Assembly: GCF_037975245.1 (NCBI RefSeq)
Contig: NC_092576.1
Location: forward strand, 940,501 to 1,004,500
DNA from: Apostichopus japonicus
Taxonomy: Eukaryota; Echinodermata; Holothuroidea; Aspidochirotida; Stichopodidae
DNA: 64,000 nucleotides
Reading direction: 5' to 3'
Shown here: positions 446 to 63,226 of the stretch, piece after piece
Layout of the letters: every line of letters starts with the position of its first letter
Position numbering within the stretch: position 1 is the first letter of the stretch
The notes under the pieces: generated by a model
What the model was told of the DNA's origin: nothing
Databases searched by the model: none
Seen by the model: the letters and a program-made list of their open reading frames with translations, nothing else
Made by a program: the position numbers and the translations under genes

Positions 446-788
446 ATGGTTGTCTTTTCATTTCAGTGGTGGACATTTTTCTTCATTTGGGATGTTCATC
501 ACGTCATTGCGGATATAAATCTGGGAAAAACAATAACTACTAATATTCACGATGACCTGATTCTGAACTGTTCTACTGGAGAGGAGGTGGCGAATAGTTC
601 ACTAACATGGTTTCACAATGACGACAGTCTATACGTGAAATCATATCCAATCGATCCAGGAAATAGTGAATTAATACCAACGAATTATTCATTACATATC
701 AGAAACGTCTCTTTGTCGAACGAAGGGAACTATTCATGTGTGGACAGTATTTACCACCTAGTTGTGCAGTATCAGGTAGAAGTAAATG
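446..788 (+). CDS. Receptor exon 1: signal peptide and Ig domain 1
   Basis: Starts at ATG 446 with a hydrophobic, aromatic leader of about 22 residues (MVVFSFQWWTFFFIW then HHVIA), a likely signal peptide. One Ig domain follows, with LILNCS, the core tryptophan in LTWFHN and the closing cysteine in GNYSCVDS. Several N-glycosylation sequons (NCS, NSS, NYS, NVS) support an extracellular position. The donor GTGAGT follows 788 in phase 1. Alternative: TTTCATTTCAG just before 472 could be an acceptor, with the leader encoded upstream. Confidence 0.8.
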
Positions 789-3700
789 GTGAGTTTATGT
801 TAGATTTATTCAGATTAGAAAATTATCTACAGCAATTCACTTGGTTGGCACTTTCATCGATCATCAATAACTCAATCAATTACTAATAATTATTACTATT
901 TAATTTAACAATAACAATCAATCTACTGTTAAAATATCAATTTTAACTATGATGTTATTTTGTATGTTAGATATTACGCATTTGTAATATGTTATACTCC
1001 TTCAACGTACGTAGACTAAGTTAAGGTTCAATCTAGATTATTCTACTAATTATTTGTCTATACCTATATCTATACCTATATATAGATATAGATATATATA
1101 GACATATAGATATATAGACATATAGATATATATGTTTATATTTATATTTATATATATATATGTTTATATTTATATATAGATATCATTTTACCAATGCATA
1201 TAAAGTCCTCCTATCGTTAAATATACGGTTCGCCTTCAGATAACAAACATGTATGTTTATTTCTTGTTTAGTACCTCCAAGACTGTTTTACATTCAAGTT
1301 GGAAGTTATACTTTATCCGATGGAGATTATTTCCGTATCGAGACGAATGAGACGTTGAACGTGTCCTGCCATGTCATTGGCGTTAAGCCTGCCACTGATC
1401 TACAGTGGTTAGTCAATAATGAAAGAATTCAGCCAAGTTACGTCGAAGATGTTTTCGAGGAAGTAGCCAATAATAAAATCTCTAACATCCACTCTACGCT
1501 TCGTTTCCATCCTCCAACTACAAATGGAACTTTATCATGTGTTCGATGTTCAGGTGTTTCCACTAATCAAGAGCACATAAAGGTTCGCTTCTATGACTAC
1601 GGTAAGCCTTTGTTGTTAACGATGCAGAAATCTTAATGGTAACCAAGACATGTCGTTAAAATATTCTCTTTTTTGGGGCGGGGGGAGGGCAAAAATTAAA
1701 AGACTAAGAAATATCGACGGCTTTAATATTATTTTCAATATTCTGTAATTGCTGTGATTTTGATATGACACATCTTATTTTTTTTTATCTTAGCATCAGT
1801 TTATTTGTACAACAAAATCTGACGCATGCACGCATATTTTCACAGAGATTACTGAGATAAACATTAGCCTTAAAAATTTCGTAGTTGCTTTCATTTTTTG
1901 GTTATATAGCACTACTTCCTTATTCATTTCTATCGGAGGCGTGTGTTAAAATAAAATTACAACTTGCGATGTAAGATCAACTGACTTTTATACAGTAATA
2001 AATAAGGTAAGTGGAAAAACATAATAATACCGAACACACTTCTTTTTTTAGTTTATAGTTTCGTCCGTATGTGATATCCAATTTTATTGCACAGGTTGAA
2101 GTATAGATATAATTACAGTTTAAACATTGCAACAGACTACGGTAGTTAAAACATTGTGCTCTAAAGCGTCATTTTCATTTCTGTTGAAAGATTTCACACT
2201 AAAAGTTATGCCGCTAATCCTTTGTTACTTCATTCCATTGATATTCTAGTGACCATGTTTGCCTACTTACATACAATCCTACGTAGCTGAATATGTTATG
2301 TTACATATTTGTTAAATATCTTTACTGAGGTAAGGATCGCATTTTCTGTAGGACTTTTCCATAAAACAAAATCTTATTTTAAATGTGACGTATTTTACCC
2401 GTTTTGTGATCAGTGCCTCCAAGATTATTTCAACTGATGGTTGATGGTATGAACGTCACCGATGGTGAACATTACTTTGTTGAAGAAGGCCAGATGTCAA
2501 ATATCTCCTGCTATGTCATGGAATCAAGACCGTTGAATAATATTCATTGGAGGATTGAAAACATAGAAAATTACCCACCAAGTGTAAAGTTCGACATGAA
2601 GAATGACTCTGCTAACAATATAGTTTTCGATACACAGTCAACACTTCATTTGCATCCAGCATCCGTTAATGGAACCATAACATGTGTTCGAATCGTAGAG
2701 GATATTTTAATTCAAGAAAACATTGGGATCCATCTTCATATTTTTGGTAAGCTTAAACCACTTATCCATTTTGTTGGTTAACATTTGACGAAACTAATGA
2801 GGGGAATTCAATTCATATAACAACAACAAAAAATACCAAGACAAATATCCGACTCTTTTTCTTTCTTTGCTATAATATAATTGAAATAATGCAATCTTAA
2901 CAATCAGGCAAAAAAAAATAAACAGTAAAGTTATTATAAATTTAAGAGACAATGTTAACTGCAAGACTGTTTATACGCTTTTATTTTTTGGTATCACTAT
3001 AGGCCAGATACCAACTAGGCTCACTGTAAACATAATAGTATATACTTTATATACTTTACCCTCAGCTGCCTTGTTATCAAGTATCCTAAGCAATAATAGA
3101 GAGAACATTTCAAACCAGTTACACTTAATTACATTAGTGCCAAGTACTGAGTTTTGTATATTTATAATACTAATTCCAGTCAGTTTTTGTTTCCTTTTCA
3201 GCAAAAGATAAAACACAATTCTCATCTGTAGAAGTCTCAATTGTAGAAAGAACATTACAGATTGCAATCATTAGCACCATTTGTTTCATTTTCGCGTCAA
3301 CTCTCGCGTGTGTACTAAAAAGGGGTAAGTTCATTACAACATTGGGTAAAACACATAGATAACAATTATATTTACAAAAGCTAAATCGAATATTTTAAGT
3401 TCGTAGAGATTTATAAGAAGGACGTAACTACCGTTATATCTACTGATATTTATATTTTATCAAAGAGCTTTGTGTATATTACCGAATTTGAGCTATTATA
3501 AGGGTTTATTTATTATAATCGATGATCAATGCAGTTATAATATGTAAGATAATATTGTTACACAGCCAAAATTTTCCATTTACAGCGCTTTTGAGGAGAA
3601 GAACGTTGACAGTATCGTGAGTGTTTTTTACCATCACATCATATTTCACCATGATAATCCTTCAGGGTATCTTGCCTACTAATTTCAAATTTTGTTATGA

Positions 3701-6700
3701 TACTATCATCGACTAACTCTGTTGCTGTCGATTACCTCCGATATTATTGCCTACCATATTGAATAGAAGGAGTACATAGGAGCGATGTTAATGATGTGTC
3801 TTTTAAATATTGGATGTAGGATAGTTTAGCAATATTTAATTATAACAATTAATGTTATTAACTTTTGCAGAATGATGTAACTTAGTTATTTTAGTACCTG
3901 CAATATATCCACAACTCGAAGAAACAGCTTAGGAAAATGACGTGCTGCTTTTAAAAGAGGCAAATTTATCTACAATTAACTATAAATTCAATGATGTCAT
4001 GTTGTCATAGTTATAATCTCTTTTAGGTTTTTCCCCTTTATGGTCTACTTCTGTTATGAGTGACACACCGTTAAGATAATTTGTATCAATTTCAGAACTG
4101 TAATGCTGAAAGTAAAAGTAATATTTGTACCAAAAAAAAAACAATTAACCACCCTAGTTTAAAATTGTATAACAATTAGGATGTGATACTTTCTTTTGTA
4201 CTCGCGACAATCGTCTTTACTTCTATTTACACAGATCAATGCGTGATGATGACACGTCTCGTGGAAATGACATGACTCTGAATTCACTAGGTGATCTAAG
4301 TTAATAGCTCTCTTGCAATCTTGATCATAGATATAAGAATTTGTAATATGCCACTAACACGATTATATTCACAAGTACGTTGTCCAGCAGCAAACGGAAG
4401 AGATACCAAACAGACAGTACCAAATTAGGAAAATAAAGGAAATTATTTAGTTAAATTTATTGACGTCAGGCACTAGAAATATGTTGTAACTGGTCTCATG
4501 TTATATTTTCTTCTAGCAAGAGATGGCGATCATGAAGATCAAATTTGCGGGTAACATTTTCATTCTTCTCTGATGTTCTTTGACAACGTTTTATTATAAA
4601 ATAAAATTAAGACAATAACGTTTGCTAGCAAACATGTGAACACAGAGACACACAGTTAGTTAACATGTTATATATTTCTTACTTCTATAGTACTGTGGGT
4701 GCCTTACAAAGTGTCCCTCCTGGCTACTCAACCTACATTGTTGCAGATGATGAGGACGGTAAGAAAACATTTACTGATTGTAAAGAAAAGTAACATTTTG
4801 AGGAGACTTTAAGCTACATGCATATTGTGAGCTATTGTTATAGTTTCCTGCAATTCTGCGTAACCATTGATTGTTGAATGCCTCGAATCAAGCGGACTAG
4901 AGAGTACTAAATTAGTTAGAGTAGGTCTTTATGTGATAGTTCAGATTCCATTCTAATCGGGCATAAATCTTTCTTTCCTTCACAAGTTTCGTCCAGTTTC
5001 ATTTTGTGGTTGTGTGTTTTTGTTTGGTTTAACAAATGTAGCAAAGAGTGTGATAAGTCCATGTATCTATTATTATTTCAATCATTCGAAATCAATGCAA
5101 CATGTTAAGGGATTTATATTTTCCTTCAGGTCAGATGAGATAATATTTGTTCTTCTTCTTTTTACTATGACGTTCTTAATAATATTTCTTTAGTATATCA
5201 ACATTACTACATAACACTATCTAAAGCCTACCATCGTAGGAATAAATATAGTAGGTATATATGAGATTTTCTTCTTATTTTATTTATGTTTGCCAGAGGA
5301 GCTTAAGACAGTCGAAACCACACTCAGGTAAAAATATTTTTTGTTTCTCATCATGACCCAAATTCAGGAAACTAATGCCTAAGTTTTACAAATGCTCATG
5401 AGGGTAACAAGCATGACCAAAATAAATACAAAGTTTCATGAGTATCACTATTACTCTAATCATTTGAATTCCCTTAAGCCGATCAAAAGATGTATTAAGA
5501 AAAGCTCACCTATAGATCTTAGTCATTATTGTTAGGATAGACTCGATCATTTTCAAAAATTTAGAAGGGGAAAAAGAGAAACTGAAATAATTGAAAGAAA
5601 AATACACTCGACTTTAAGTTCTTTCGTTTAGCTGTTAAATCAAATAAGCGTCCTATGCAATGTTGTTGAAAAAAACAGTGGAAGAAAGTTCAACCCTACG
5701 GCTGTAGTTAGTACTGTCAAAAAATGTTTTTTTATTGAATATTCGACATTAGCTTCGTGTCGGTTCGATTTAAATTGTACTTACAACTTAATCCGAATAT
5801 GGATGATTTTTAAAGCTATGATTACTGACTTTAAAATGATTTTCAAAACAACACCACAGTTAATAATTTCTAGGGCATTTGAAAAGGAGTATACATTAAA
5901 CTTTAATTCAATCAATCCAGTCGCAGACTTCCAGAAATACCAAATCAAGAGGGAGACGATGGCGAATACGGTCAGTGGTTATAAATACGATGTATTCTTT
6001 AAGTTTACTTTTGGTCAATTTTCCAATTTAATAATTCTTTATGTTTTCCAGGAACGAACCCTTTCCACTTTTTTTAAATCACAAATCCAAACTTCTCTCA
6101 ACCGAAAGCAGAAACTCGGCTATCATCGTCATAATGAACATGTGCGGTATGAATATTTATGATAAACAAGTGACCTAAAGCCTAATAATTTCTTAAGGAG
6201 TCATCAGGGTATGCTTGATTTTTATTATAATGTACAATGTGATGTAATATATTTGCTTTCTTGGCTTAAACAAAATTATCATACAATATATCGTTAATGT
6301 AACTATGATTTTGCCAGATTGTAATTGAAAAACTTAGGTTGGGCAATATAAAGTTATTACCATGTAACGGCATAGAGTACGTAGTAATCAATCATAAGTA
6401 GCTTATGATGTAATCAGTAATTCAAAGAGTCTATGTTGTGTATGAAGGAATTATAATGAATACTATCCCACATCCCAAAGCTTAGTACTATCCCTTTGGG
6501 ATCATTATAACCATAGTCAATATATTTGGGGTTAAGCATAGGATATGCAGCTTTGGTTCGCTAGTTGTTATATGTCTCGTTGTGCCGCCCTGTTACGGTC
6601 GGTATTTGAAATATTGATCGACACTTTCTCATTGCGATAGCATATTACTCGGAGACCAAACCAATGGAATCAGGAAGGAGTGTTTATCAACTCCACGACG

Positions 6701-9700
6701 TCTGCGTTCTTATGAGCCTTAAGGTTGGGGAATTATACAAACGTTGGACAGGAATACTTAACTACGACAATAATCGAAGTAAATCCGTAGTTATCACTAC
6801 AGCATCAGGTGAAGCATATAAACTTAACTATTGTGAATTCATTATTATTTACTAAGATCTACACTTTATTCTTTATAACTACATTTTGTTGTCAAATCAT
6901 GCGTTTAATTTCTTCGCATTCAGTATATCATATTATATTTCAATCCTTAAGGGCGCTTGTATATTTTAATAAAGGGTCGGATTGCTCGGATTAGTAGTTC
7001 ATTAAAGCAATGGTTACGTTCATCCTAGTAGAATTTTTCACACCTTCCATGATTTGTACACAGAAATCGACACCTCCTCTAGTGCTCTCCATTGGAACTA
7101 CCATGTACGACGCCTTCTAGAGCTCCCTGAAAATGCCGAGAATATTGTCAGGACGGAGGGTATATACATGGATGGAGGTATGGACGCTTTCAACGCTAAT
7201 CCAGATGACGAATTAATGAATTAATTATTTTAATCAGCCGTTATGTATGTTTACGTCTATTATAAAATTCACCGTGACAGACCAAGTACATATAACTTAG
7301 TCCAACAGTTAAATGAGGGCAGATAGAGTACCTCTCTCTTGCAAGCTTTTTGTCAATTTAACGCTATTTTTGAAAATAACGCTATTTTTTACATTAAGTT
7401 ACAGTAACTGGAGACAGGGAGACGAAGTCTAGAAAGGAATGTAGCTGATAGAAAAGAATGCTTCAAAAATTAGTGTGTAATTATAGAGTTACAAAATACT
7501 TCAATAACTATTTAGTCTTGGAAAACATGCATCGAACAAGAGTTTACATGGTGAAAACATGTTAAACACACACACACACATAATAATAATATTCTTCCAA
7601 TATATTTTCTTATACCGACAAATAACATGAACAAATAGCCCTCTTAATTGCACAGAACAAGTAAAATCACTATAATTAATCACAATCTATAGAAACATGA
7701 CCAACTCAGCACATGTATGTATAAAAAACATTCTCGTGTCTTAAGAAAACTATTCTTATCGGAAAATTTATTTAAAAATCAACTACGCTTTCATAGGCGT
7801 CATGGAATACCTTAACATAGAAACCCTCCAAAAAAATAAATAAAGAAATCAATATTTGTAAATATTATCAACAATAAATCCTTTTTATACCATGATCGTG
7901 TTGCCTTGTGAATTTATGGGTCAATAATTTATCGTGCGGTACTTAGGTCAAATTTACTTGCTGCAAGAGCACATGGTATGCCGAACCTTGCAAGATTTCA
8001 TGGAAGACGGATGCCCAGGTATGAGTTGGACAGAATTGATGGCAAAGAACTCTGTCATGGATTTCCTGAAAGGAATGGATTTAATTCATTCATACGGGGT
8101 AAAGTTACGTGCTACTTTTATTTGTACGTTGTATTTCATATTTATAGACGAATGCTATGATCTTCATAACACATCTCCTGTTTAAAGTTGTCAATTTGTT
8201 TTGTTGGCGTAGAAGGAAACTAATAAGGCACACGTCCAACCCGACCATATATGCAAGACAGTCGGGTCCAAACATATTAGATACACCGTCTGATCAAGTT
8301 TCTGCCCCGCCTGGCCTAGCTAACTTGATCCGCCCTTTGTATTAGCGATTCTGCCGATTTCTGATCTCCCATCAGATATGACCCCGCGGGGTCATGCAAT
8401 TCCATTGGAGTTCCCTGTACCGTATTGTAATGTATACAAAGTTTGCATACAAGAATAATACTAGCAGCGCGTCTGTACAGTATAAGCCTAGCTTACTCAG
8501 TACTAGTATCGCGAAAGGTTTTTTTTTACTCGACAGTTCTTAAAGTTCAATACAAAGTGATGATACTTTGTTAGTTTCACAGTAATTTTTCATTCTTTCA
8601 ATAATAAAGGAGGACTTTCAGCAAAGCATAAATATTCATCAAAGAGAGTGATAGGTCACTCACAAGTCGTTATTAACAAATTACAAAGCAGTTTACAACG
8701 CCGAGATTATGCTGTTTGCTCTTGGAACTGAACTTACAAACACTAGATATATTTATTTATTTAATTCCCGATATCGAATATTTGAATCCGGGCAGATTCC
8801 GGCAGAAACTGTATACTACCGCGAATAGAGAATATCAGAGAAAAATATCATACTGTCGGACTCACTGGCGTAGGAAGGTATTTTTTGTCAAGGGGGGGGG
8901 GGGGGGCTAATGAATGATGAATTGTGATCGCTGACCTGGGGGGCGGGGTTCTAAAAATTTCCAAGGGGAGGGGGCCCTAACTCCCCGTTGGAAAATTTTG
9001 GAACAATTAGAGGCCATCAGATGCTGTTTAGTGCCACAAATGTTTTTCACATTTCCTGATTTACTTTACTAACCTTGCTTGCAGTTGCCAGGCGTGTACG
9101 TGCCATACGTGATATGCATGAACTACGGAGTAGCGGCGATGGTTTATGTACTATGTCAGTATGTATGCCTGACCTACCGTACATGAACAAAACAAACGGA
9201 GTTCTGTACACACTGTAGTGTATAAGCTAGCACAACCTAAACATGCAGCACATTGGTCTGGACGAGGTTTGATCCTGACTTATTTTGACGGTATGCTCAA
9301 ACGCTAGCGAATTTCCGGCGGAGATAGTGATTCCCAATAATCGCAGTACTAAACAGTCTGAACAATGGTGAAAGACTACGTTCTGAATTTCAGGGAAAAA
9401 AAATCAAAACTGAAAGGGGTTTTTACCCTCGACGACTGGGGGGCGGAAGCATACTTCCGCCGCCATGTTTTCAGGTGGGGGTCGGATTAGCATAACCAAC
9501 TTGTTAAAAACATTCGTGACTGAAAAACAGGAAATTCTTTAATACCCTTTACCAAATTATCGTCGATAAAAGTAGCAAGGAAAAATTATCAGTTTCACTT
9601 TTACTTAACCGCAGCTAGTAATTTTATTAATAAAGCTATCTCCAAAAGCAATTATTAGTTTGCATTTACCTGCAATGAAGGTGTACCGACTGTATTTAAA

Positions 9701-12700
9701 TTTCATGTCAAAGCATCAGGAGCCTGAGATGCCAGTTAGTTGTACCAAGGAGGTTCTACAAGGAGAGCCGCCTAGATTGCACAAGCTCCACAATGTATTT
9801 ACACTTCATTGATTCCACACAATAGATCCAAGCATATCGAGCTGGAGATTTGATCTTGTGGTCAGCAGGGAGAAAATCAGGTAATTAACTGTGACAGTCT
9901 GCTACAAGATATGAGGGATATGATATGAGGGGTAGTGATGTCACTGAGCTTGGCTACCTCTTGCCCCAGATTTCATAGCGGCAAAAATTAGCATTATTAC
10001 AATTATTTACTATATGCCATAATCTTTTCTGTTTGTTTATTGTTTTCAAGAGAAACAACCGATTTAATTATTAACTATTCTTATTTTAGCTTCTACATCC
10101 AGGGTTGTCGAGACGTAAAATTCTGGTGACTAGGGCAGGGATCTGCAAATTATACGATTTCTGTCTGTCTGAAGACGTAACAATCATCGTTCGTTTAATT
10201 AAATCAAAGGTAAGGATAAATGTGAATTAACCTCACAAAGGCTCACAATGCCATCAGCGTACATGGATGCGTAAAGTATCCCTCTTAAACTTGAAATGTT
10301 TAAGTAACTGCAAGAGTTTATATTGATTGTTTAGCTACCTTCTGAGGGGAAATATAAAATATTGCTAATTTACTACACTTTCGTCCAGAAGCCTTTTTAT
10401 TTTGTTTCGCTCCCCCCCCCCCTCCGCCCCCCCCCCCCCAAAAAGAATAACAAGAAGATTTGCTGTCTCATCGTGACTGGCCTGTGCAAATCAGAGCACT
10501 ACCTTTCTATATCATTAACAAAAGAATGAATATTAATTTCGATCCTTTCTTATTTTCGGTGTGGATATGAAACAGTCAAATTACAACGAAAATCAACTTC
10601 CTCCGGAATCGATACAACGGAACGAATACTCAAAAGAAAGTGATGCTTGGTCATGTGCAGTTTGTGTTTGGGAAATAATGACAAATGGTAAATTTATAGC
10701 GGTGTACTGATGCATGTGGGTGGAAAATAATTGAACCTTTACAGGTATACAAATTCCCCTTTTCTTTGATTTGATTTTAACTCCACATCCACCTCCTCTT
10801 CCTTTCAGTCGTTATTATTACGGCAATCATTACGAGTATGTATTGCGATTATTATACGAATAATCTCCGAAAGTTTGAATACGACTGTTATAGTCCCATT
10901 CTCACGTATATGCCCCACCCCCCTTGAAGTGAAATAAGTTACGTTTGTAAAGCTGTCTGGTGGTTCTTCCTTTATGGATCAGGAGTTCTATGCTTGGTGT
11001 TAAATTTAAGGTTATATGGGGAAATAACTTCATCAGAATACGTTATGTACTTTCAATGTAACTAAAAATGGGAACTTCGAATTCGTTTAATATCATTGTG
11101 TAGGAAGCATTTTAGTGTTCAGCGTCAGTTAAAAATATGCATTGAAAGGTGCATCTGCTTGATATTTCGAATTTTCTTGATGGTTACAACTTTATATTCC
11201 CAACAATGTTGCTGCCATTTATATATTTTGCAGGCTCCATACCCTGTCAGGGTAGCGGATGGGGGAAGACCAATGCAAGCTACGAAGCACATGATTGTCC
11301 ACAAAATATTGCCGAAATATTAAGGTGAGCATCCTCGTGTATGCAGTTTCCATCTTCTTTTTTTGGAAGGTATTGTAAAAATATTTTCTTTGCCTTGACC
11401 TAGACAGCTACCACCTACTTCGAATGAAATGCTATACGATAGTTATTAGAACCGCACTATGACAACATGATATATTGCATGAAAAGCATGATATGTTTAG
11501 AAAAATCAGATTGTAAAACAGCAGTAAGTTACAAGCTCAGACTATGGAAATACTTCATGAACCTATGATGTTAACATGAGGTAGACAATTCATGCCTTAA
11601 CTAGATATACTAAATTTAACTAGGATCACTTTTAGATTGCTTGTCAACAATCCATTAAACAGAAATATTTCCAATATCCTATCCTACAACTGTTACAAAC
11701 TTAGAATATATTTACTTTTTTGGCTCGTTCGACTTAAGTTTTGTTTGTCAGAATGGGACGGTTTGGTAGTGCCTTTTGGCCGTGACGTTTTGGATCCCGC
11801 ATGGTAGGTCTCGTAAAAAGCACTCATTGTGCATGGGAGGCCTCATAAACTGTGGTGGGGCAAAATGGGTTGAGGATATGTGAAGGTGTATAACTACCTT
11901 CGAGAAAATTTTAGGCGAGATAAGAAAAGGTTATCTTTAAAACTTATTTCCAATAGTCAGTCATACATTAACGTCAGTTGATAAAGTGCCAAAAATCATC
12001 TGTAAAGTTGAAATGCAGAATACTTATCCACTCACACGTGATATAAAACCACGGTTAAAATACAAAAGAAAAAGAAGTATAGATTCATTTTAAAGGTATA
12101 TTACATTAACGGATAAGACGATGTGTCCAGAGAGATAAGGCAGCCAAAAAGTAACACGTAATTCTGCTCATGAAACAGTAAAAATAAATTTAAAATACGC
12201 ACAATAACAAGAGTATATGAGTGAAGCTAATGAACAATTTCAACTTACAAAGCGAAGTTGAAGGGTAAACAAACACGACCTTGCCTTCAGCATTACCAGC
12301 GGCATACTGGGTCACTCTATGGGTTAAACAGGCTTTCTTGGAAATGTTTAGAAATTTGTAAGGAGGAACCAATAGGAAAGGTGAACGTTATAACATTGCA
12401 AATTGATCGGTGACATACGTTGAACAAACGCAAATAGGCCTACATGCAATATGCAGATATCCACATAAAACTTGTATAATTCAGTGACACGTTAAAACCT
12501 AATAAGCCTATCAGTTCACGGTGGTATGCTTCTACTTACATAGCCTTAATAAACTTAAACAAAGCAATGTCATTTACATATGAAGAGAACATATCAGGAG
12601 AACACGTGAGTCTAGACTAGCGGCCAATCGAAAAGTGATAAGCGTTGAAGCTCAGGTGTCGGCAAATATTGTAATGTACAAGGTTTGCATGCGTGCCTCG

Positions 12701-15218
12701 CCTGACTTCAATTTGAACGAGTTCAGTTTTGAGCCTCTATGAATCTCGGATCACTTAGTATGCAAATTGTGTAACACAAAGGAATGAAATGACATGTCAG
12801 TATCATTGGCTAGTGGATAGCATATATTCTTTGTATAGTGAATCAACTATTTACAAGAACATAGTACGTAAACAACTGTAAATATTATGTTACTCGGTGA
12901 CCTTCATGGATTCATTCCTCACGATTGCTAGAATAATTTATCGGTCCAGACAACAATATTTGATACATATTTAATCCTGGAATTGACCCTCGGAAAGTAG
13001 GTTCGCTGGAACACTATTGGTACGGTGTGGTGGGTGTTCACTGGCCCTATTGATTATCTTCCGGATATTTGGTATATTACATAAAAAAAAGGGTTCTCTG
13101 CAGATCCTTGGTCGGAATAATGGAGAATCTCAGATTTGCTGAAACTAAACCAGAGCATAAAGAATCGGCAAATCTCTTGTGGATGGAATTATGGTAAACC
13201 TCCCAGTGACACTGGATGACACGTTCGTCTAGAGACAGCGCTCCTCTGTGGTTAATATCGTGAACGAAAAGGGAGCTGTCTCGTCTGTTATTTAAATACG
13301 CTCCTATTTTAATATCGCACAGTTCATGGTCTGGGAACACGCGGGATTGAACAAATGAACAGGACTGGGACAGGTACACGCAGACACGTCACCACGTGGT
13401 GGTTGTGCAGCACAATAAACATAATTATCCGTCCGTTCATGCTATATTTGGCATTAAATTGTAAGGTATGTTCGTAACGTTCTCGCCAGGTCAATTACCT
13501 AGGCTGCAGGATGTATTAAATTGGTAGCATGTGAGCAGTTGCTGCCTGGTGATGCAAAAAATAAGTGCATTGTACCTTTATAGGTTTTAAATCTGATATA
13601 TGTAAGTCTTAGGTCTATACATGTCATTTCTCCGATCTCGTTATCGTGAGAGAATCAAAGTTAGGTTTCAACTATCGTTTTGTCAACTATCGGTCGAACA
13701 ACGACCATTTCTTGACCACGTTCGACAAAGCAAGTGTCATATCTACCTAATAAATATTTGTGCGAACTGGTCTCGAATACCGACAGTTAGGATGTTAGGA
13801 AATTGATCTATTTAGCATTGGCTATTGAGCCAGATATGAATATTCTTCTTTTGGTCTTACCGATGTAGCTTGCGAAATTTTGTCATTTTCTTCCATTGGG
13901 AGGAATAAACAGGTGTTTTCAGACGTTTCCTCCGTGAAATTGGGTAAAAAAGGTATATAAAGGAGACTTTAAACAACAATCAGTCAATCGTTTGGTTTTG
14001 GTAGAGACGTTGGCAAGTTCATTTCCTTATTACCATCAGAGTGAGGCATTTTCAAAGTTGCGTGGGGGATTCAAAACGGAAGGGACAGAATTATAGCCGA
14101 ATGAGCTTAGGATTGTTCCCACAGAGACATTTATATTGGTGTTTAGTCGAAGTTTAGACGTTCTTATCACAAGATAACGCAATTTCCATTCTAGTTTGTG
14201 TCAAAATCTTTACATTTGATAGCGCCATTAGGACGTTCAACTCGGGGTTTTCCAAATCTGAAACTCCAAATCAAACAATTTTCCTCGGTTTTCGTATATA
14301 TTAAAATGTCAAAATAAGATAAAACTGTTAGCAAACTGCTTATCAACAAGAGAGCCTGTGTAGAAGAGAGCCATTTTTTTAGTGAAGAAGAAGGATCGAA
14401 ACGTCAGGCCAACATACATATTAAAAAGTCGATATTGCTAAATACGTTTCTTATGGGGATAGAATCTTTGAAGTGTGGCACAATCACCAGCATCTCAAAA
14501 GTCCTCACACATCCCGATTTTCAAATCAGTTGGGTGTGTTGCTCTGTGTTTGCTGAATTCAGCCGACTTAAATGTAGATGTTTAACAACATCTTTATGTT
14601 TAAAGCTCTGTATATAATTAGGTCTGCACGCAAGGTTCTGCCAATGAATACTACCAACATTTTGTACGGATTACAAAAAGGAGGGAGAGTAAACCACCAC
14701 CCCGGGATCCGTGACTGGATTTTGTTTAAACTATAGAGGTTCGCAGGGTATGTTGCGTTGCAAAGTTCACCAAAAGAATACCGTCCATACATGATGCCTT
14801 GATGTAGCAAGTTCGGTTAATTGCTTTAGTGATTTTTTTCCAGAGAATGATGCAAACTCATAAGTGAAATTTGCCATACCTCCCAAATATAAAGGTAGTC
14901 GCTGTCAAGTAATTATTTACTCTTCAACTAGATATGTTAAAGCTGTATACAATATGATCTAGCAGGTAATGTCAGGATGAATGTTCAATTCATCAAGATA
15001 AAGTAAAACCGAACTCATCAGGAACTCAACGATTTATTAAATTTTTACAGAAAGTTTAATGTAAGTCAAACATTTATATCTATGAGGTATTCTTTTCCGT
15101 TTACTAATTCTTCTTTCCTTCTTTTTCCCTTAGAAATGAAGTTTTACTACGATGTTGGTCAACGGACGTTTCCAATAGACCTTCAATCTCTCAACTGAGA
15201 GCGGCTTTGAAAACTTAA
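446..15218 (+). CDS. Three-Ig transmembrane receptor with a tyrosine-kinase-like pseudokinase domain (18-exon model)
   Basis: Exon model joined by splice phase: 446-788, 1272-1601, 2414-2746, 3202-3324, 3586-3616, 4235-4290, 4517-4550, 4691-4758, 5297-5327, 5927-5974 (or 5977), 6052-6146, 6641-6808, 7064-7177, 7947-8098, 10090-10209, 10576-10687, 11234-11324, 15134-15218. Phases match at every junction and give about 777 residues ending in TAA. Order: hydrophobic leader, Ig1 (about 30-113), Ig2 (115-224), Ig3 (225-335), membrane helix (about 354-374), juxtamembrane, kinase-like domain (about 500-775), no C-terminal tail. The kinase fold is clear (E-x-PENAENIV, QEHM hinge, LPPES, SDAWS, RCW...NRP), but Lys (VVIT), HRD (HPG) and DFG (DFC) are replaced, so phosphotransfer is unlikely. 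I infer a signalling co-receptor or decoy. The ATG at 446 has A at -3 and G at +4. I cannot name the family; the overall plan resembles Ig-containing RTKs. The juxtamembrane micro-exons are the least certain part. Confidence 0.85.
1058..1180. repeat. TATAGA/TATAT microsatellite
   Basis: Runs of TATAGATATA and TATATTTA words inside receptor intron 1. A low-complexity array with slippage-type variation. Confidence 0.8.
1272..1601 (+). CDS. Receptor exon 2: Ig domain 2
   Basis: The acceptor TTTAG precedes 1272 and the donor GTAAGC follows 1601; both borders are phase 1. The exon opens with VPPRLFYIQV and encodes one Ig domain: NVSCHV, core tryptophan in LQWLVN, closing NGTLSCVRC. The whole domain sits in one 1-1 exon, the classic layout of a shuffled module. 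Its start and its NGT-C-VR end closely match exon 3, so the two domains look like a tandem exon duplication. One extra cysteine (VRCSG) follows the closing one. Confidence 0.88.
2414..2746 (+). CDS. Receptor exon 3: Ig domain 3
   Basis: The acceptor GATCAG precedes 2414 and the donor GTAAGC follows 2746, phase 1 at both ends. It encodes VPPRLFQLMV, then NISCYVM, a core tryptophan in IHWRIE and closing NGTITCVR. It is the membrane-proximal Ig domain and is paralogous to exon 2 (same VPPRLF start, same HLHPASVNGT-type strand before the last cysteine). Sequons NVT, NIS, NDS and NGT are present. Confidence 0.88.
3202..3324 (+). CDS. Receptor exon 4: stalk and transmembrane helix
   Basis: The acceptor TTCCTTTTCAG precedes 3202 and the donor GTAAGT follows 3324, phase 1 at both ends. 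A short stalk (AKDKTQFSSVEVS) leads into an uncharged stretch, LQIAIISTICFIFASTLACV, followed by LKRG as a stop-transfer signal. This fixes a type I topology with the Ig domains outside and the kinase-like domain inside. Confidence 0.85.
3586..3616 (+). CDS. Receptor exon 5: basic juxtamembrane micro-exon
   Basis: A 31-nt exon after TTTACAG and before GTGAGT. Enters in phase 1, leaves in phase 2, and encodes ALLRRRTLTV. The triple arginine next to the helix fits the positive-inside rule. The support is phase continuity and splice sites only. Confidence 0.6.
4235..4290 (+). CDS. Receptor exon 6: acidic/polar juxtamembrane micro-exon
   Basis: Follows TTTACACAG and encodes SSMRDDDTSRGNDMTLNSL. 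Enters in phase 2, leaves in phase 1. The donor GTGATC is poor, so the 3' end is uncertain. No domain is recognised. Confidence 0.5.
4517..4550 (+). CDS. Receptor exon 7: juxtamembrane micro-exon
   Basis: A 34-nt exon after TTCTTCTAG and before GTAACA. Encodes ARDGDHEDQIC and changes phase from 1 to 2. It is accepted only because it keeps the reading frame between its neighbours. Confidence 0.5.
4691..4758 (+). CDS. Receptor exon 8: tyrosine-bearing juxtamembrane exon
   Basis: Follows ACTTCTATAG and precedes GTAAGA; phase 2 in, phase 1 out. Encodes TVGALQSVPPGYSTYIVADD, then ED. The tyrosines in PGYSTYIVADD are candidates for phosphorylation by a partner kinase and for SH2 or PTB docking, which would suit a receptor that cannot phosphorylate itself. 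That role is inference. Confidence 0.6.
5297..5327 (+). CDS. Receptor exon 9: juxtamembrane micro-exon
   Basis: A 31-nt exon after TTTGCCAG and before GTAAAA. Encodes EELKTVETTL plus two bases, phase 1 in and 2 out. No motif is recognised. Confidence 0.5.
5927..5974 (+). CDS. Receptor exon 10: pre-kinase linker with uncertain donor
   Basis: After CCAGTCGCAG the frame gives RLPEIPNQEGDDGEYG. The best-looking donor (GTCAGT at 5971) would leave phase 1 and run into a stop in exon 11. Donors at 5975 (GTGGTT) or 5978 (GTTATA) leave phase 2 and keep the frame open. Either the weaker donor is used or the exon pairing differs; a transcript is needed to decide. Confidence 0.45.
6052..6146 (+). CDS. 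Receptor exon 11: linker to the kinase-like domain
   Basis: The acceptor ATGTTTTCCAG precedes 6052. In the frame demanded by exon 12 it reads NEPFPLFLNHKSKLLS, then SRNSAIIVIMNMC, and leaves in phase 1 before GTATGA. The other two frames either contain a stop or do not join exon 12. Confidence 0.55.
6641..6808 (+). CDS. Receptor exon 12: kinase-like N-lobe, glycine loop and AxK strand
   Basis: Follows CATTGCGATAG and precedes GTGAAG, phase 1 at both ends. The segment LMSLKVGELYKRWTG occupies the place of the nucleotide-binding loop but lacks GxGxxG. SKSVVITTAS occupies the place of VAIK with threonine at the lysine position. Both losses argue against normal ATP handling. A short insert (LNYDNNR) lies between strands, as in many RTKs. 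Confidence 0.75.
7064..7177 (+). CDS. Receptor exon 13: kinase-like alpha-C and strand 4
   Basis: Follows TTTGTACACAG and precedes GTATGG, phase 1 at both ends. Encodes NYHVRRLLELPENAENIVRT, then EGIYMDG, matching the alpha-C to beta-4/5 stretch of tyrosine kinases where a conserved leucine-x-HPNIV-like segment is usual. The PENAENIV wording replaces the common HPNIV. Confidence 0.8.
7947..8098 (+). CDS. Receptor exon 14: hinge and alpha-D/E of the kinase-like domain
   Basis: Follows GTACTTAG and precedes GTAAAG; phase 1 in, 0 out. Reads IYLLQEHMVCRTLQDFMED for the hinge and alpha-D, then SWTELMAKNSVMDFLKGMDL and IHSYG, the helix that leads to the catalytic loop in tyrosine kinases (compare the usual GM-x-YL). 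Confidence 0.85.
8863..9470. repeat. Possible degraded inverted-repeat element in receptor intron 14
   Basis: The left side has CACTGGCGTAGGAAGGTA followed by G-rich tracts. The right side has TACTTCCGCCGCCATG after another G-rich tract. The two ends are loosely inverted copies. The match is too poor to give exact ends or a superfamily. Confidence 0.3.
10090..10209 (+). CDS. Receptor exon 15: degenerate catalytic loop (HPGL) and DFC
   Basis: Follows CTTATTTTAG and precedes GTAAGG, phase 0 at both ends, 40 codons. LLHPGLSRRKILVT aligns with the HRDLAARNVLV loop. The catalytic aspartate is replaced (HPG for HRD) and the metal-binding asparagine is lysine. ICKLYDFCLSEDV aligns with the strand ending in DFG, with cysteine for glycine. 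The fold is kept and catalysis is lost on three counts in one exon. Confidence 0.85.
10576..10687 (+). CDS. Receptor exon 16: PPE motif and alpha-F
   Basis: Follows ATGAAACAG and precedes GTAAAT; phase 0 in, 1 out. SNYNENQLPPESIQRNEYSK, then ESDAWSCAVCVWEIMTN, matches the APE motif and the DxW alpha-F helix, the most recognisable tyrosine-kinase signature of the gene. The activation segment between DFC and PPES is short with a single tyrosine. Confidence 0.9.
11234..11324 (+). CDS. Receptor exon 17: C-lobe alpha-G to alpha-H
   Basis: Follows ATATTTTGCAG and precedes GTGAGC; phase 1 in, 2 out. It reads GSIPCQGSGWGKTNASYEAH, then DCPQNIAEILR, where the last part matches the RPxxCPxxIYxIM stretch of tyrosine kinases. 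Confidence 0.8.
13077..13379 (-). other. Uncharacterised antisense open frame in the last intron
   Basis: A 100-codon open frame on the minus strand with balanced amino-acid composition (for example FPDHELCDIKIGAYL and CHWEVYHNSIHKRF), unlike the low-complexity frames nearby. I recognise no family and see no clear splice partners. It could be a fossil exon, an exon of a nested gene, or chance. Confidence 0.2.
14390..14410 (-). repeat. Single copy of the GGCCTGACGTTTCGATCC motif
   Basis: Read on the minus strand this is GGCCTGACGTTTCGATCCTT, the same word that begins each 45-bp unit at 57530-57664 and a variant of 63265-63297. It looks like a dispersed repeat end. Confidence 0.6.
15134..15218 (+). 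CDS. Receptor exon 18: terminal C-lobe exon with stop
   Basis: The acceptor TTTTTCCCTTAG precedes 15134. In the required phase it reads NEVLLRCWSTDVSNRPSISQ, then LRAALKT and TAA. This is kinase subdomain XI, with the RCW and NRP residues of the last helices intact. The protein ends about where the fold ends, so it has no C-terminal tail. Confidence 0.85.
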
Positions 15219-17315
15219 GGTAACGAAAGGCTATTGCTAGAGGTAAACGTTTATCGGCCCAAACTTATTTTCCGTGTAATACTTGGCTTCTAAGAAAAAT
15301 TGTCTGCACCCATCGTAGTCAGGGAAAGATAATCGAGAGATTTCACTGTTTCCTACCTTAGCATGAACAATCCTATCTCCATAGAAGCTACTTAACACCC
15401 TACCACACCAGTACAGTCATCACCAGCAAGGTTAGGTTCCTGTTCAATAATTATCCTGAAATTAATCTTGAATTACAGACAGGCAATAATCTTGGGGTTC
15501 TTGTTGACTTTTTTCTTCTCTAAACAACAGCAATGGACCTTTATGTGGAAAAGCAGGCGACTTATAACCTCTTATCCATAAAACTGCATAATACAGTGGA
15601 ACTTTACTCGCTAAGTTTGAAACGATACAACCGTGTGTGTTTCGTAACATTGAAATATCCTAATCTACTTTTAGTTTAGTATTTAGTTTTCAATTGTGAC
15701 CTGAACTATTTGCCACCAGGCACAATCGTTTTTTTTTTCTTTTTTTCTTCTTTTCGACACATTTGTCTTACATTAATACGGACTATAAGTAAAAAAAAAA
15801 ACTAACCTTTACGAAAAAGAAACGTACTTTCTATAATTAAAAAAAAAACTTTCAAGAATTACGGTATGTTTTCCCAGTATAATATTTTGTCTATTCCAAT
15901 ATTTTTATCTGCCTCAGTATATTCTATATATTATATACGTATTCTTTATCAACTATTCAGAACGTGTTTTGAACAGTGAACTTTCTTCCGAGATTTTCAC
16001 TCCCATTACGCATTAGCGGTCATTTTGTGACCTGACTGCGTCATAATCAACTTTTTCCTTCACCTTCTTGAAGCACTCTTTAATTATCCTTCTAAGTTTT
16101 CAAGCTATTGGTTTCGTTGTTTTCTACACGTGCTGTCATTCAGGCTGACATAATTCGTACAGGTATCGGTTTCGCGATGCCTTCTGATGCTATATTGCTG
16201 ACATTGTTGCTCCGTTAGGAGATGTGGCTTTAAGCCGCCCGCTTATTTAGCGGTGCTTGGGTAGACTTGTAACTCCCATCCTGTTATTTATAGATCGTTT
16301 TAACTCTGATATGCCGTTAACACCCTTTGTGGCCTTGTCTTTGCATCATGTTGAACTATTATTGCTTTTTACGTGACCCGCCCTGCGGGATCGAAAACGT
16401 CGCGGCCAAACGGAACTACTCCACCATCCCATTCTAACAAACAAAATCAAGTCAACGAGCCAAAAAAGTAAATATGCCCACCGTGAACTGTGAACGAGGG
16501 CCGGCCGTGACAGGTCACAGGGGGCAACTCAATAAGAGCGGAGCAACTGACACGCACCACCCTGCTTGGTGTACTACTATTCGGTTCTCTGTTGCTAAAC
16601 TGCGCCGGGACCCATCGACGCAAGTACAACCCGCCCCAAAAACGTACAAAATATGAACAAGGCATCCCTGGGTAAGTTACCGCTACAAACAATTGCTTAA
16701 ATAACAAAAAGATAAACTTACTTCCAGATGAACCACCCATAACCCCTTTCTCCACTTTTCGGTACATTACCGCCCTCTTGACAAGCTCTGTGCCACCCGA
16801 CCAAATGAATGCAAATATCGCTCTCTCCAACAGCACCAGGACGCAACGCGGAATTGGGTACACCGAGCCCGGAAACCGCATAATGAGCGAAACAAATCGA
16901 TTTATAACGGTGACCCAAGATCGAAAGCCAGCGGGTGTCAAAGGTTTTGAACCTGCTCTCAAATACCTCAGCCCTCTCTTTCCAGGTGACATCACAAGGT
17001 GCATCATAGCCGAACCATATGTTGAATTATTATTGGCTTAAGGCTTAGACTCCGTGTTAGCCATTGCTCTTTCTGTTGGCATTTAAGCCTTCTGTGACCA
17101 TTGACGTCTGTTCGGGTTAAGGCCGTATGGGTACCTCTCGTGGGTTCTTCGTTACTACCTTCAGTTTCCTCCTATGCGTATCGGTCCCCTCTGTATCTAT
17201 CTTCTAGTTCGAGCGGCTACTGCTGCCATGCAGTTACGGTAGTAAGAAGTTGTTCGTGTCGTAGCACATTTTAATACTATTCGTAACTGTTCAATTTGCT
17301 TCATTGACTAGATCA
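15219..17315. other. Intergenic DNA, no gene seen
   Basis: Holds the 3' UTR of the receptor (end not determined) and then repeat-like sequence. Words around 16348 (ATGTTGAACTATTATTGCT) and 17021 (ATGTTGAATTATTATTGGCT) resemble each other, suggesting an old duplication or insertion. The 186-codon minus frame at 16447-17007 overlaps equally long plus frames and has no recognised domain. Confidence 0.4.
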
Positions 17316-17316
17316 A

Positions 17317-17514
17317 ATGTCTGACAGGAATGTCTCGTATACATGTACCACATGTTCTCTCTGCCATCCGGGCCTGAATTGGGATAAACATGTGCTATGT
17401 TCAACATACAGGTCGTTTTCCAGACGCGATCCTTGTTCCGCATGTGTTACCTTCGACCAGAAAAAACAACAACAAACAAACAAATGTAAGGAGATCAAGT
17501 CGGCTATCGGCTAG
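17317..17514 (+). pseudogene. Cysteine-rich Gag-like fragment of the DIRS relic
   Basis: A short frame with a zinc-knuckle-like set: SYTCTTCSLCHPGLNWDKH, then C, and RDPCSACVTF further on. Paired cysteines followed by D-x-H-x2-C resemble the cysteine/histidine region of the first reading frame of DIRS elements. The resemblance is by eye only. Confidence 0.4.
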
Positions 17515-18502
17515 ACGAAAGAAACTGCAGAAGCAACTTACTCAGTAACATTCTACCCTTGCGACTACTGAAGTCCCGGAGACAGTGGAGAGGTCTAACT
17601 GAAAACACGGTAGCTTCTTGCTAGGACAAACGAAAAGGAAAGGCCATGAAACCTAGTAATGGTACTGTCTGGTGTTGGATTGGCTTCGCTACCATCCAGA
17701 AAAATGGTTGTTTATGGTCCGCGACTTTCCCGGGAGCATCAAAGGCGACCAGTACATAGTGGCAGAAGTAGAAAGAAGTACACGTCTCCGAGAGCTTGAG
17801 GTCCATCTCCATACATCGGCAACGTTGCGAACAGCAGCAGATGGCCATCGTCCGTCCCTAGAGAGCTAGCTAGCGAAATGATTTATATGAACGCGCTCGA
17901 TCCCAGAGTTGCAATTTGAATACTAAACCTTTCAGTCTTTCAGGACAACAAGAAGGAGGAACTCGACGATAAAAGGCACTTCCCGAAATCCAGTGCTTAT
18001 GGCAAAGGTCAATGGTATATTCAAAAGAGCCTAGCATTTGACTCACCTTTGGCTCCTGAGGGCTGAGGCAACGCACCACTCGGCTGCGGATCAGAAACGA
18101 GTATTCGAAAGTTACAACTCTATGCATTCCATTTCGACGGATTGAAGGCTATTCAAAATAAAATATAGTGGACTGCCTTCACTGTCAAGGAAGTTTGGTT
18201 ACTCAAGGTCCACGATTAACGGGGCTTCTAACGGCCAATGTGCGACAGCTGTAAAGGTGTACCCACTCACTAGATCAACTTCTCGAAACAGGAGCCGCAG
18301 AGATCTCAAACTACAAAGTATTCCTCAAATTGATATCAAGTTCACACACGGGACCTAACACTTCAAGAAAACAAACCAAAAGGTTCCTCAAGTAGAATTA
18401 TGAGGGAGTAGAATTATGAGGGAGTAGAATACCAATCAAGAAGCACCAGGTCCGTCCAAGTCTGCCAGGTGACGAGGAATATATTTCACCAGTTTCAGCA
18501 TA

Positions 18503-18580
18503 ATGAAAAAGGTCACCAGAGTCTATCACAATGCGGGGACCGACAACCAAATCGCAGATGCCCTGCCCAAGTGGTACCTG
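18503..18580 (+). pseudogene. RNase H C-terminal fragment
   Basis: Reads VYHNAGTDNQIADALPKW. The G-x-x-N-x-x-ADALSR-type ending of retroelement RNase H is recognisable (ADALPKW here). Downstream frames are broken. Confidence 0.6.
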
Positions 18581-18986
18581 TCGCCATTTACTTGTGCGAC
18601 ACGGTTAAACCTGATTGGCTCTCTGCACATCGATCTCATCTCTATGCATCAGCCGACAATGCCAAAATTCCGATATTTGGGCTCGAGAACGTATTGACCA
18701 CAAGCTTTTAAATGCCTGATCCACGGAGTCCTGCTGAAACCCAAGTCCGCCAGATGTAGACTTCTTCTGATAGCCCTAAACTGACACCGGGAGACCCTGC
18801 TGAGTCCAGGTTACGATATTCCACGATATGTCACGGATTCGCCGTAACCGTTTCACATACAAATTGAAAAGTCTTCACAGCATCCGATCGATCTGACTGA
18901 GTGGCCCTCATCAAGGCTTCCTAGAACGAAGAGTTTTGAGGGGACTGCCGATATGGCGCCAGCGTTCTATAACTGCCAGACTTTAA

Positions 18987-19122
18987 AATTTCTACGAGTG
19001 GTGCTCGGCTCGTCAGATTATTCAGCGTTCAGCGTCTGTAAATCCTCTGACAGATTTTGTCATGCACCTATCCCATCATCAATCACGCTGTATCGCTGCG
19101 CGATCTCTGCCGTTTACAAAGT
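18987..19122 (+). pseudogene. Tyrosine recombinase N-terminal (core-binding) fragment
   Basis: In one frame: NFYEWCSARQIIQRSASVNP, then LTDFVMHLS. The F-x-x-WC...SxV...xxFLxxL pattern is that of the core-binding domain of DIRS-type tyrosine recombinases. Confidence 0.6.
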
Positions 19123-19379
19123 TTCGACGATTATACCACAATGGGGTCAAACAAAGTCATCTTCGCAATCCTATATGGCATGGCCAACTGTCATTCGTAA
19201 CCTTTCTCACAAGACGCTGCAATGAGGAGACCACATACGATGGGATCGCATGATGTTCGTTTAATGCGCCGGTTTGCCTAAGAACCAGGCCTCAGATTTT
19301 GTGCCAGTGGACAACTAATTTTTTATGCATTAAAGGAGACAAACTGTGATGGCCGTTCTAAGCCCTCTCGTGATAGCTC

Positions 19380-19617
19380 GAGAGGGCAAAGCCTTTACCG
19401 CATCATCCTCCCGGACACCTCATACTCATCAGTGTCCAAGAACATTACCTCAAAGTGTCTGTTACAGTTGTTTCTCCCCCATGCCTCATATTTCGAGCAC
19501 ACGATCTCAGAGGTCAAGTCTCTTCTAAAGTACTGGCCGCATTCGTTCCACTGGAAGACATATTGAAGGCGGCCTCGCACGGTGTTGAGAGTTCCTTAGG
19601 GTAGCTACCGCCCGTTG
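19380..19617 (+). pseudogene. Tyrosine recombinase C-terminal fragment with frameshift
   Basis: One frame gives SVSKNITSKCLLQLF. After a shift another gives RAHDLRGQVSSKVLAAFVPL, then EDILKAASHG and a stop. AHxxR...xPLEDILKAA is characteristic of the catalytic end of DIRS/Pat-type recombinases; the arginine of the box (HDLR) is present. The final W and Y region is lost. Confidence 0.7.
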
Positions 19618-19620
19618 TAC

Positions 19621-21430
19621 CGCTCACCACCGTAGAAGTGCTACTCCGACGGAAAGTCGGAAACAGGTAAGAGAGGAGCAAAGTAAATTGAACAAAACCT
19701 TCTGGTTTGGGGATTTACAAGCCACGAAACTTACCATTCTCTCACACGCCCCACCTCCATGAGGAGATACGAAATACAGCTTAGAGTGGAATATATGATC
19801 ACGACTGTAACTTTGAACTGCGTATTCTAAGGTGAGTGGTTCGTTCGCATGTATGAATTATTTGAGAGATCTGCAACTGTCATCTCATGTCGAACCATTG
19901 TTAGATATCGTTTCACCTTACGTTCTTACCCATCTCTCCGTGTTCAGCTGGTGAGGATCTCGCTCGACCGCCAGGATTCAACTGTTTGTTTTTTCTCCAC
20001 TTTAATCCACCCACTCTTCCGTACTCATAATTTGTGTTGTCCTTTTTAGGTAGATCCTGAAGGAGGAGTAAGTAGGCGATGTCACAGAAGTGACAATTTT
20101 CAATATACAGTATGTATATATGAGAGGGCAAATGTTAATTCGGAGACAGGTCACGATGGTGGCGTTGAGTCGAGTCCCGTTCAGATTGATAGTGTGCGGT
20201 CGGCCGATCGATAATTTCCTAATAGAAACTCTTGTATTAACACCAGACAGAGCACTTAGTCGCAGTAGCTTTAACCAGTCATCGTTAGGACTTTTATTAT
20301 TCAGTTCTTAGAACAATCCATAGGTATGAGCATATCAGTGTGTGGTCACAAGACCTCTTTAATGTTAGGTCATCTCAATAGATTTAAAGTACAATACGAT
20401 GAGCAAAATTCCACAGTGTTGATTATCGCAAGTTTGTTTACACTTAAAAGTAATTGATTAAATCAATTTGAATATTTTCTTACTAATATTATTAAACGTA
20501 AAACTCCCTACCACTCATTTGATATTGAAGCGTAAAATGTAAATTTTCGAGGGCATTATGTATGTTGCTTCTTTATTAACAAATGTGATTTTTTTTTTAA
20601 TTATTACTCACAGCTAATGGACTACCATGAGCCACTCTGAGTTATACTGATCCCACCGAGGATGTCAATTGATTTCATTGTGGAATTACAGATTTGTGGC
20701 ATCGGATGGCTAAACTATTCAGTTATTGCTGCACACCACGCACACTGCAAATCCCATATCACAGCAACATATTCATATCATACCGGAGATGCCAATACCC
20801 TTTCATGCTGAAGTATATGAGAGGACTTACTGATGAACACCGAGGACTTTACAACCATTATACATCCCATTCACACAATGTCTTCCACCTATCTCATTTT
20901 ACCTAGAGGATGTGCTGATTTGGATTGGGTTGTTCAACTAGGCTCAACGCAGGAAGACAAAGTCAACGATGTTGCTATAGCTCATCATCAGGAATAATAG
21001 AGGCCTAGGCTGCACATGCTAATCACAATTGCTTGGACCAATAATCACATTTATTAATAGCCATCATGGGCTATAGGAAATACATCTATCTTCTAACAAT
21101 ATGCACTCATGCACTACCTTTGACAATACTGAGGCAGATTTTTTTTATAAGAATAAAAGGTGGTCCGTAGAGGCATTCTGCATTTCACAAATATCCAAAC
21201 TGGCTAAACATTGAAAGTTCAAAGCATGGAATATCCACTGGAAATATTATGTCAATAGAAGATCATTGGAGAGTGCATTAACAATATTGAATAGCCTACA
21301 TGGTATGCTGTGTGAATATCCATGAAAGTGACACTGCAACATGTTACTTAGAAATAACAGACTGTCTCTAATCCCTCCCAAATTATGTGTTTCTAGGGGT
21401 TTGTTCATACTAATGGAAGATAATATCCTT
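19621..21430. other. Intergenic DNA, no gene seen
   Basis: Short open frames only, none with a recognisable domain. No inverted or tandem repeat stands out. Confidence 0.4.
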
Positions 21431-21432
21431 TA

Positions 21433-41363: not shown

Positions 41364-63226
<21,863 letters not shown>

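Follow-up and report, generated by a model that had tools for sequence, protein, structure and literature searches.

The closest described counterparts of the gene treated here are the receptor tyrosine pseudokinases. HER3 (ERBB3) carries several YxxM sites for phosphoinositide 3-kinase (PI3K) and has an ectodomain without immunoglobulin (Ig) domains, the ectodomain of PTK7 is Ig-based, and EphB6 and EphA10 are each encoded by one gene and have Eph ectodomains. There are eight human receptor tyrosine pseudokinases; among them, HER3 keeps VCIK, DFG and the catalytic asparagine, PTK7, ROR1/2 and RYK keep the β3 lysine, HKD and the catalytic asparagine, and the motifs are given as VAIQ, R, HRS....S and RLG for EphB6 and as VAVH, HRG....H and GFG for EphA10 (PMC13259870). 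The gene described here lies at positions 446-15218 of the forward strand of a 64,000-nucleotide stretch from the sea cucumber Apostichopus japonicus (assembly GCF_037975245.1, contig NC_092576.1, positions 940,501 to 1,004,500; hereafter the window), and encodes an apparently catalytically dead Ig receptor.

Joining the exons from the sequence gives 17 exons and a 744-residue protein. With a probability of about 0.68, the product is a receptor that crosses the membrane once, bears three Ig domains and a tyrosine-kinase fold devoid of catalytic residues, belongs as a functional member to a large receptor pseudokinase family of sea cucumbers, and acts as a tail-less modulator. All 16 introns are of the GT...AG type with consistent phases, and the frame is open up to the TAA at 15216-15218. 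After a signal-peptide-like start come three Ig domains, one membrane span, marked by the hydropathy peak at residues 356-374, and lastly a tyrosine-kinase-like domain that is complete. Pfam detects Ig_3 in three stretches (E 5.2e-16) and the tyrosine-kinase domain at residues 500-741 (E 1e-30), while each Ig core contains one tryptophan and a cysteine pair (near 42/98, 147/204, and 257/315). The closest relative is P0001, a predicted A. japonicus protein labelled 'Ephrin type-A receptor 1' in the database (95.5% identity over 714 aligned residues). The features are listed below; family support for the exons comes from tblastn matches of 101 family protein clusters to the window (E<=1e-3 for the match counts given).

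446..788, forward strand: exon 1, start methionine, signal-peptide-like stretch and Ig domain 1 (Cys42-Cys98); the start matches P0001, whose predicted structure has a helix at 2-23 followed by the first Ig sandwich
1272..1601, forward strand: exon 2, Ig domain 2; in the P0001 model; 32 of 101 clusters match
2414..2746, forward strand: exon 3, Ig domain 3; in the P0001 model; 28 of 101 clusters match
3202..3324, forward strand: exon 4, membrane span (356-374); helix 345-380 in the P0001 model
3586..3616, forward strand: exon 5, juxtamembrane; present in P0001
4235..4290, forward strand: exon 6, juxtamembrane; not in the P0001 model, aligns with paralogues P0002 and P0003
4517..4550, forward strand: exon 7, juxtamembrane; not in the P0001 model
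4691..4758, forward strand: exon 8, juxtamembrane, with Y429 and Y432
5297..5327, forward strand: exon 9, juxtamembrane
5927..5970, forward strand: exon 10, juxtamembrane, with LPEIP and Y464
6052..6146, forward strand: likely the 18th exon of the initial annotation; more likely intron
6641..6808, forward strand: exon 11, start of the kinase-like N-lobe with degraded glycine loop; VVIT (for VAIK) at 6787-6798; 76 of 101 clusters match
7064..7177, forward strand: exon 12, αC and the next strand; αC glutamate missing
7947..8098, forward strand: exon 13, hinge, αD and αE; in the P0001 model
10090..10209, forward strand: exon 14, pseudo-active site with HPG at 10096-10104, K619 at 10117-10119 and DFC at 10156-10164; a helix is predicted in the activation segment; 100 of 101 clusters match
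10576..10687, forward strand: exon 15, PPE (APE-like) and αF with conserved D672 and W674; 96 of 101 clusters match
11234..11324, forward strand: exon 16, αG region; lower model confidence
15134..15218, forward strand: exon 17, last helices of the kinase-like domain (CW...RP) and stop, without C-tail or YxxM; P0001 ends alike

The initial annotation of this DNA had proposed an Ig and kinase-like receptor of 18 exons; its architecture, phases and open frame stand, and the exon count falls to 17 with the rejection of 6052-6146. Joined to the normal donor after 5970, this segment meets a stop, and its phase fits only via a weak donor (GTTATA at 5978). It is absent from P0001 and is matched by none of the 101 clusters (tblastn, E<=1); it was rejected because of this phase conflict or weak donor and the lack of a homologue. 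A second gene copy in the window was likewise dismissed, as just 16 of 683 tblastn matches (E<=1) fall outside the 17 exons (the best of them at 30784-30987, E 0.019) and were taken as chance.

In the aligned motifs of the window protein, VAIK corresponds to VVIT, HRDxxxxN to HPGLSRRK and DFG to DFC, so that the VAIK lysine, the HRD aspartate and the DFG glycine are lost, as the initial annotation had reported. Its further claim of a lost glycine loop applies to the first and third glycines, while the second is kept (GxGxxG to K-V-G-E-L-Y). The catalytic-loop asparagine is replaced by lysine (K619), and the αC glutamate is missing under both alignments (R537 in one, H534 in the other). Retained are the D and F of DFG, the APE glutamate, the αF aspartate, and the C-terminal RP. 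The protein thus lacks two residues expected of an active receptor tyrosine kinase (RTK), the HRD aspartate and the VAIK lysine, and combines the marks of a receptor tyrosine pseudokinase, namely a single-pass receptor, a kinase fold (predicted on P0001), and substituted VAIK, HRD and DFG residues. As a guess, K619 might form a salt bridge with the DFC aspartate in place of the metal. A few pseudokinases have turned out to possess other chemistry, and here some positions of the pocket show strict conservation and an intact fold is predicted; an unorthodox kinase or other transfer activity at the HPG/DFC site is nevertheless scarcely credible, since the window protein combines the loss of the lysine, the HRD aspartate, the catalytic asparagine and two of the three loop glycines, a lysine stands where the metal-binding asparagine was, and most activation segments contain no tyrosine.

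P0001 shares the architecture and the dead motifs of the window protein, its model lacking exons 6 and 7. The two are identical at 682 of 746 alignment columns; 32 are gap columns, 30 of which come from the two short exons missing in the P0001 model. The 32 residues that differ among the 714 aligned are spread over the ectodomain (14/345, 4.1%), the span and juxtamembrane part (6/103), and the kinase-like part (12/266, 4.5%). Ephrin receptors have an ephrin-binding ectodomain, FN3 and SAM domains, and Pfam shows Ig and kinase families only in both proteins: the label of P0001 is wrong by domain content. A full kinase-like fold is predicted for P0001 by structure modelling, and in a fold comparison of the predicted domain FGFR, KIT and MER are near-tied. 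Of the paralogues P0002 to P0004, P0002 and P0003 (38% and 48% identity) have the dead motifs in common with the window protein; unlike it, both end in a YMTM tail. The P0003 model has no Ig domain, and that of P0004 no catalytic-loop region.

The initial annotation missed the large family to which the gene belongs, the conservation of its altered motifs, and the C-terminal YxxM present in most relatives with a measurable tail but not in the window copy. The family was gathered by three protein searches (including one with a region of a single protein and one with a 22-sequence profile) and grouped at 90% identity into 101 protein clusters, 98 of which come from A. japonicus or Holothuria leucospilota. 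The window protein conforms to its definition, with HPG...K and DFC in an RTK-like fold, an Ig ectodomain and a membrane span. On chromosome-sized A. japonicus contigs there are 42 clusters, 14 of them on one (46.0 Mb) and 16 on another (34.6 Mb), and 25 lie on shorter A. japonicus contigs, taken for an older assembly; H. leucospilota contributes 30, and P0118, a divergent A. japonicus protein, is counted apart from the 42 and the 25. As the two A. japonicus assemblies probably overlap and isoforms are possible, the 101 clusters do not amount to a gene count. No relative from a non-holothurian echinoderm was found by these searches, which need shared 5-residue words (scoring in the profile search was limited to the 8000 candidates with the most words in common); this absence is therefore not proof.

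Among 56 members scanned with Pfam, 55 match kinase families and 34 the commonest Ig family; a membrane-span-like stretch occurs in 56 of the 66 members with room for one. None of the 101 clusters is an active relative; beyond them, at E 4.1e-26 and weaker, the matches are to other kinases, beginning with P0119, a Callorhinchus milii protein labelled ephrin type-A receptor 7. P0119 has HKT for HRD and AGF for DFG, and by its motifs looks like an Eph pseudokinase rather than EphA7. The names that databases give to family members vary widely and mislead (Ephrin receptor, CSK, BTK, Src, FGFR, VEGFR, Cad96Ca, ste20, and cadherin). P0115 (H. leucospilota, 1101 aa), labelled IgGFc-binding protein, has PF17517 beside Ig families and a partial kinase-like part, and is possibly a fused gene model.

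The altered motifs are nearly fixed across the family. In a tally tied to the catalytic loop, which is present in 100 of the 101 clusters (the P0004 model lacks it), neither HRD nor DFG stands at its expected site in any of the 100; the search of the joined protein against proteomes, proposed in the initial annotation, thus turned up no orthologue with intact HRD/DFG. The loop starts with HP in all 100 (HPG 93, HPC 3, HPA 2, HPV 1, and HPD 1, the last in P0012), lysine replaces the catalytic-loop asparagine in 99 (P0039 keeps it), and DFC is found in 95, the others being DFY, EFC, AFC, NFC, and DFW (P0118). The string HRD does occur in P0050, P0062 and P0079, always outside the catalytic loop, and an apparent LFY in one member was discarded as a pattern match elsewhere in the protein. 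Column conservation was assessed on 49 rows under 75% identity and 280 columns. P613 and K619 are invariant (49/49) and belong to a group of twelve columns that share zero entropy; C634 is present in 48 of the 49 rows (rank 18 of 280 columns) and G614 in 45 (rank 36), while T517, at the site of the VAIK lysine, is T or S in 47 rows and K in none. Independent decay would not give one shared, highly conserved set of replacements, and the pattern may therefore be read as selection on a rebuilt, non-catalytic pocket.

It is accordingly very unlikely that the gene is a decaying pseudogene or the dying duplicate of an active RTK. Such a fate would fit the alteration of all the main catalytic motifs, the absence of the C-tail that most relatives have, and the lack of expression evidence for the window copy. 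In place of the disrupted frame or lost introns of a pseudogene, however, there are 17 exons free of stops and frameshifts; the counterpart P0001 begins and ends alike and differs at only 32 of 714 aligned residues; and the same replacements recur family-wide, in up to 49 of 49 rows, with no active family relative found in the protein searches. The case for function rather than decay made in the initial annotation from the open frame is upheld and gains this family-wide conservation. The sequence evidence supports an apparently catalytically dead Ig receptor of its own lineage that is probably functional.

YxxM is a docking motif for the SH2 domains of PI3K in vertebrate receptors. With tails located by pattern (19 of the 101 clusters, including P0001, have no tail of at least 20 residues), the motif occurs in 76 of 82 tails of at least 20 residues, against a mean of 8.2 and a maximum of 18 over 1000 shuffles, and a thinned set shows it in 41 of 47 tails. 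Both the window gene and P0001 end ten residues beyond the RP motif, without YxxM. Downstream of the stop (15219-22000), a search for a tail exon returned eight Y..M strings near stops, none recognised as family-tail-like. The cytoplasmic part of the window protein ahead of the kinase-like domain contains Y429, Y432, Y464, Y466, and Y467. Among the 91 members longer than 300 residues, the juxtamembrane motifs LPx[I/V/L]P and YY[A/S/T] were counted in 66 and 67, respectively, at any place in the protein; both are possible adaptor sites.

In the mechanism proposed, the ectodomain would bind a ligand or the surface of a neighbouring cell. The dead domain would neither bind Mg-ATP normally nor transfer phosphate, and would serve as a scaffold or dimer partner that receives its phosphate from another kinase; PI3K would then be recruited to the phosphorylated C-terminal YxxM of most members, in a manner close to that of HER3. 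Most likely, the window copy modulates its relatives as a co-receptor or dampener, or signals via its juxtamembrane tyrosines; we infer this modulator role from the missing tail, common to the window copy and P0001. The lack of the tail motif that is common to most relatives with a measurable tail would also suit a decoy or ligand trap, with an ectodomain in competition for ligand and a cytoplasmic part that is only an anchor. A decoy seems improbable all the same: its kinase-like domain would be dispensable, yet only 12 of 266 residues differ from P0001, and in P0001 the domain is predicted to fold fully.

The tree, obtained from a quick search of 83 rows with support from the Shimodaira-Hasegawa-like approximate likelihood ratio test (SH-aLRT) only, places the 71 family rows on one branch (SH-aLRT 96), in agreement with the separate lineage suspected in the initial annotation. 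FGFR-type Ig receptor kinases are active kinases, while the HPG/DFC family forms a separate branch. The window gene groups with P0001, P0002, and P0003 (SH-aLRT 100), and weakly with a Holothuria protein (80). P0118 adjoins the family branch (SH-aLRT 99), but on a long branch; together with P0081 and P0079 it is among the long branches of the tree. This 629-residue protein has kept the VAIK lysine (IIAK), yet shows HPG and DFW, which suggests that HRD was lost before the lysine, in a stepwise loss of catalysis. P0118 is 83% identical to P0015 over 18% of the length, and its kinase-like part differs, a pattern that suggests exon shuffling.

Such shuffling, and the placing of 42 clusters on A. 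japonicus chromosomes (14 and 16 on two of them), would suit a germline immune or self-recognition repertoire, in which the Ig receptors would recognise microbes or other cells on a shared dead-kinase scaffold. Echinoderm immunity relies on expanded germline families (PMC13428168), and the 2017 A. japonicus genome paper lists 'tyrosine-protein kinase receptor' among significantly expanded, clustered families (PMC5638244). The authors of the latter, however, link that expansion to the recognition of signals and to the nervous system; none of the terms looked for occurs in a paper on challenged coelomocytes (PMC7161275), and no immune expression was seen; and the clusters may include isoforms. 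Between the window protein and P0001, moreover, the ectodomain diverges no faster than the kinase-like part (4.1% vs 4.5%), so the window gene bears no sign of an ectodomain arms race. On balance, a repertoire of this kind is a tentative and rather unlikely explanation. Somewhat more doubtful still is a composite scheme, in which a large germline repertoire for Ig recognition would have lost catalysis before the Apostichopus/Holothuria split, remade the pocket as a nearly invariant HPG-K-DFC module devoid of catalysis, signalled to PI3K by trans-phosphorylation of the C-terminal YxxM, and included tail-less dampeners such as the window copy. If true, tailed and tail-less members would logically resemble the activating/inhibitory pairs of vertebrate Ig receptors.

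The expansion reported in 2017 is likely, though unproved, to be the HPG/DFC family; the accessible text of PMC5638244 does not call the kinase domains dead. In the open-access literature (subscription papers being mostly outside), no report of the family as pseudokinases or as catalytically dead was found, and the available part of PMC8662651 contains no mention of echinoderms, Apostichopus or holothurians. A sea cucumber Cad96Ca gene named in PMC9854957 and PMC12784826 could not be mapped to a family member. A phosphopeptide called 'Cad96Ca-like' from a study of A. japonicus intestine regeneration, IEAISIQSSK (PMC6037860), matches P0096, P0099 and P0100 exactly; three further published phosphopeptides (labelled HTK16-like, Tec-like, and Src) have no match among the retrieved proteins.

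Several observations weigh against the interpretation of the gene as a functional, tail-less modulator within a docking family. The phosphosite published in PMC6037860 is a serine, not a tail tyrosine. Transcript-like contigs joining the Ig and kinase parts were found for family members (e.g., P0019, whose 3777-base contig contains a frame of 810 residues with matches to Ig and kinase families) and none for the window gene, and P0001 is itself a gene prediction. The full architecture is not seen in every family model, as the counts for the span (56/66) and the commonest Ig family (34/56) show, and the signature has exceptions in three A. japonicus proteins, with one residue kept in each: P0012 (HRD aspartate, as HPD), P0039 (catalytic asparagine), and P0118 (VAIK lysine). 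Weak nucleotide binding by the window domain is possible, because the D and F of DFG and one glycine of the loop are retained. The binding of PI3K to YxxM would be carried over to echinoderms from vertebrate receptors, and the PI3K step would rest on relatives, since the window copy has no YxxM tail; 6 of the 82 tails are also without the motif.

Elsewhere in the window, a TGATGA repeat array of about 74 units (59953-60398) has long open frames on both strands, and a tandem array with a 152-base unit (37911-38432) comprises 3.4 copies with 98% matches.

With this family, a single animal group has apparently dozens of genes for receptor pseudokinases in which the 'dead' residues are near-fixed, and these could show which role a kinase fold plays after catalysis is lost and how receptors signal by docking alone. 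In studies of regeneration, colour and growth in sea cucumbers, the 'tyrosine-protein kinase receptor' expansion of PMC5638244 may need re-reading as non-enzymes, as may family members labelled Ephrin receptor, CSK, BTK or Cad96Ca.

Like the window protein, HER3 is a receptor pseudokinase; whereas HER3 carries several YxxM sites, most HPG/DFC members have one in the tail, and the window copy none. PTK7, ROR1/2 and RYK are single-pass receptor pseudokinases as well, but have kept more motifs. The initial annotation had held that known receptor pseudokinases in general keep more of them; this is true of HER3, PTK7, ROR1/2 and RYK, but EphB6 and EphA10, on the motifs given in PMC13259870, are about equally degraded, with different replacement residues. 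The degree of motif loss is therefore already known from these two. What looks new is a large set of such receptors, so far from sea cucumbers only, whose replacement residues form one near-fixed signature and whose tails mostly carry a docking motif.
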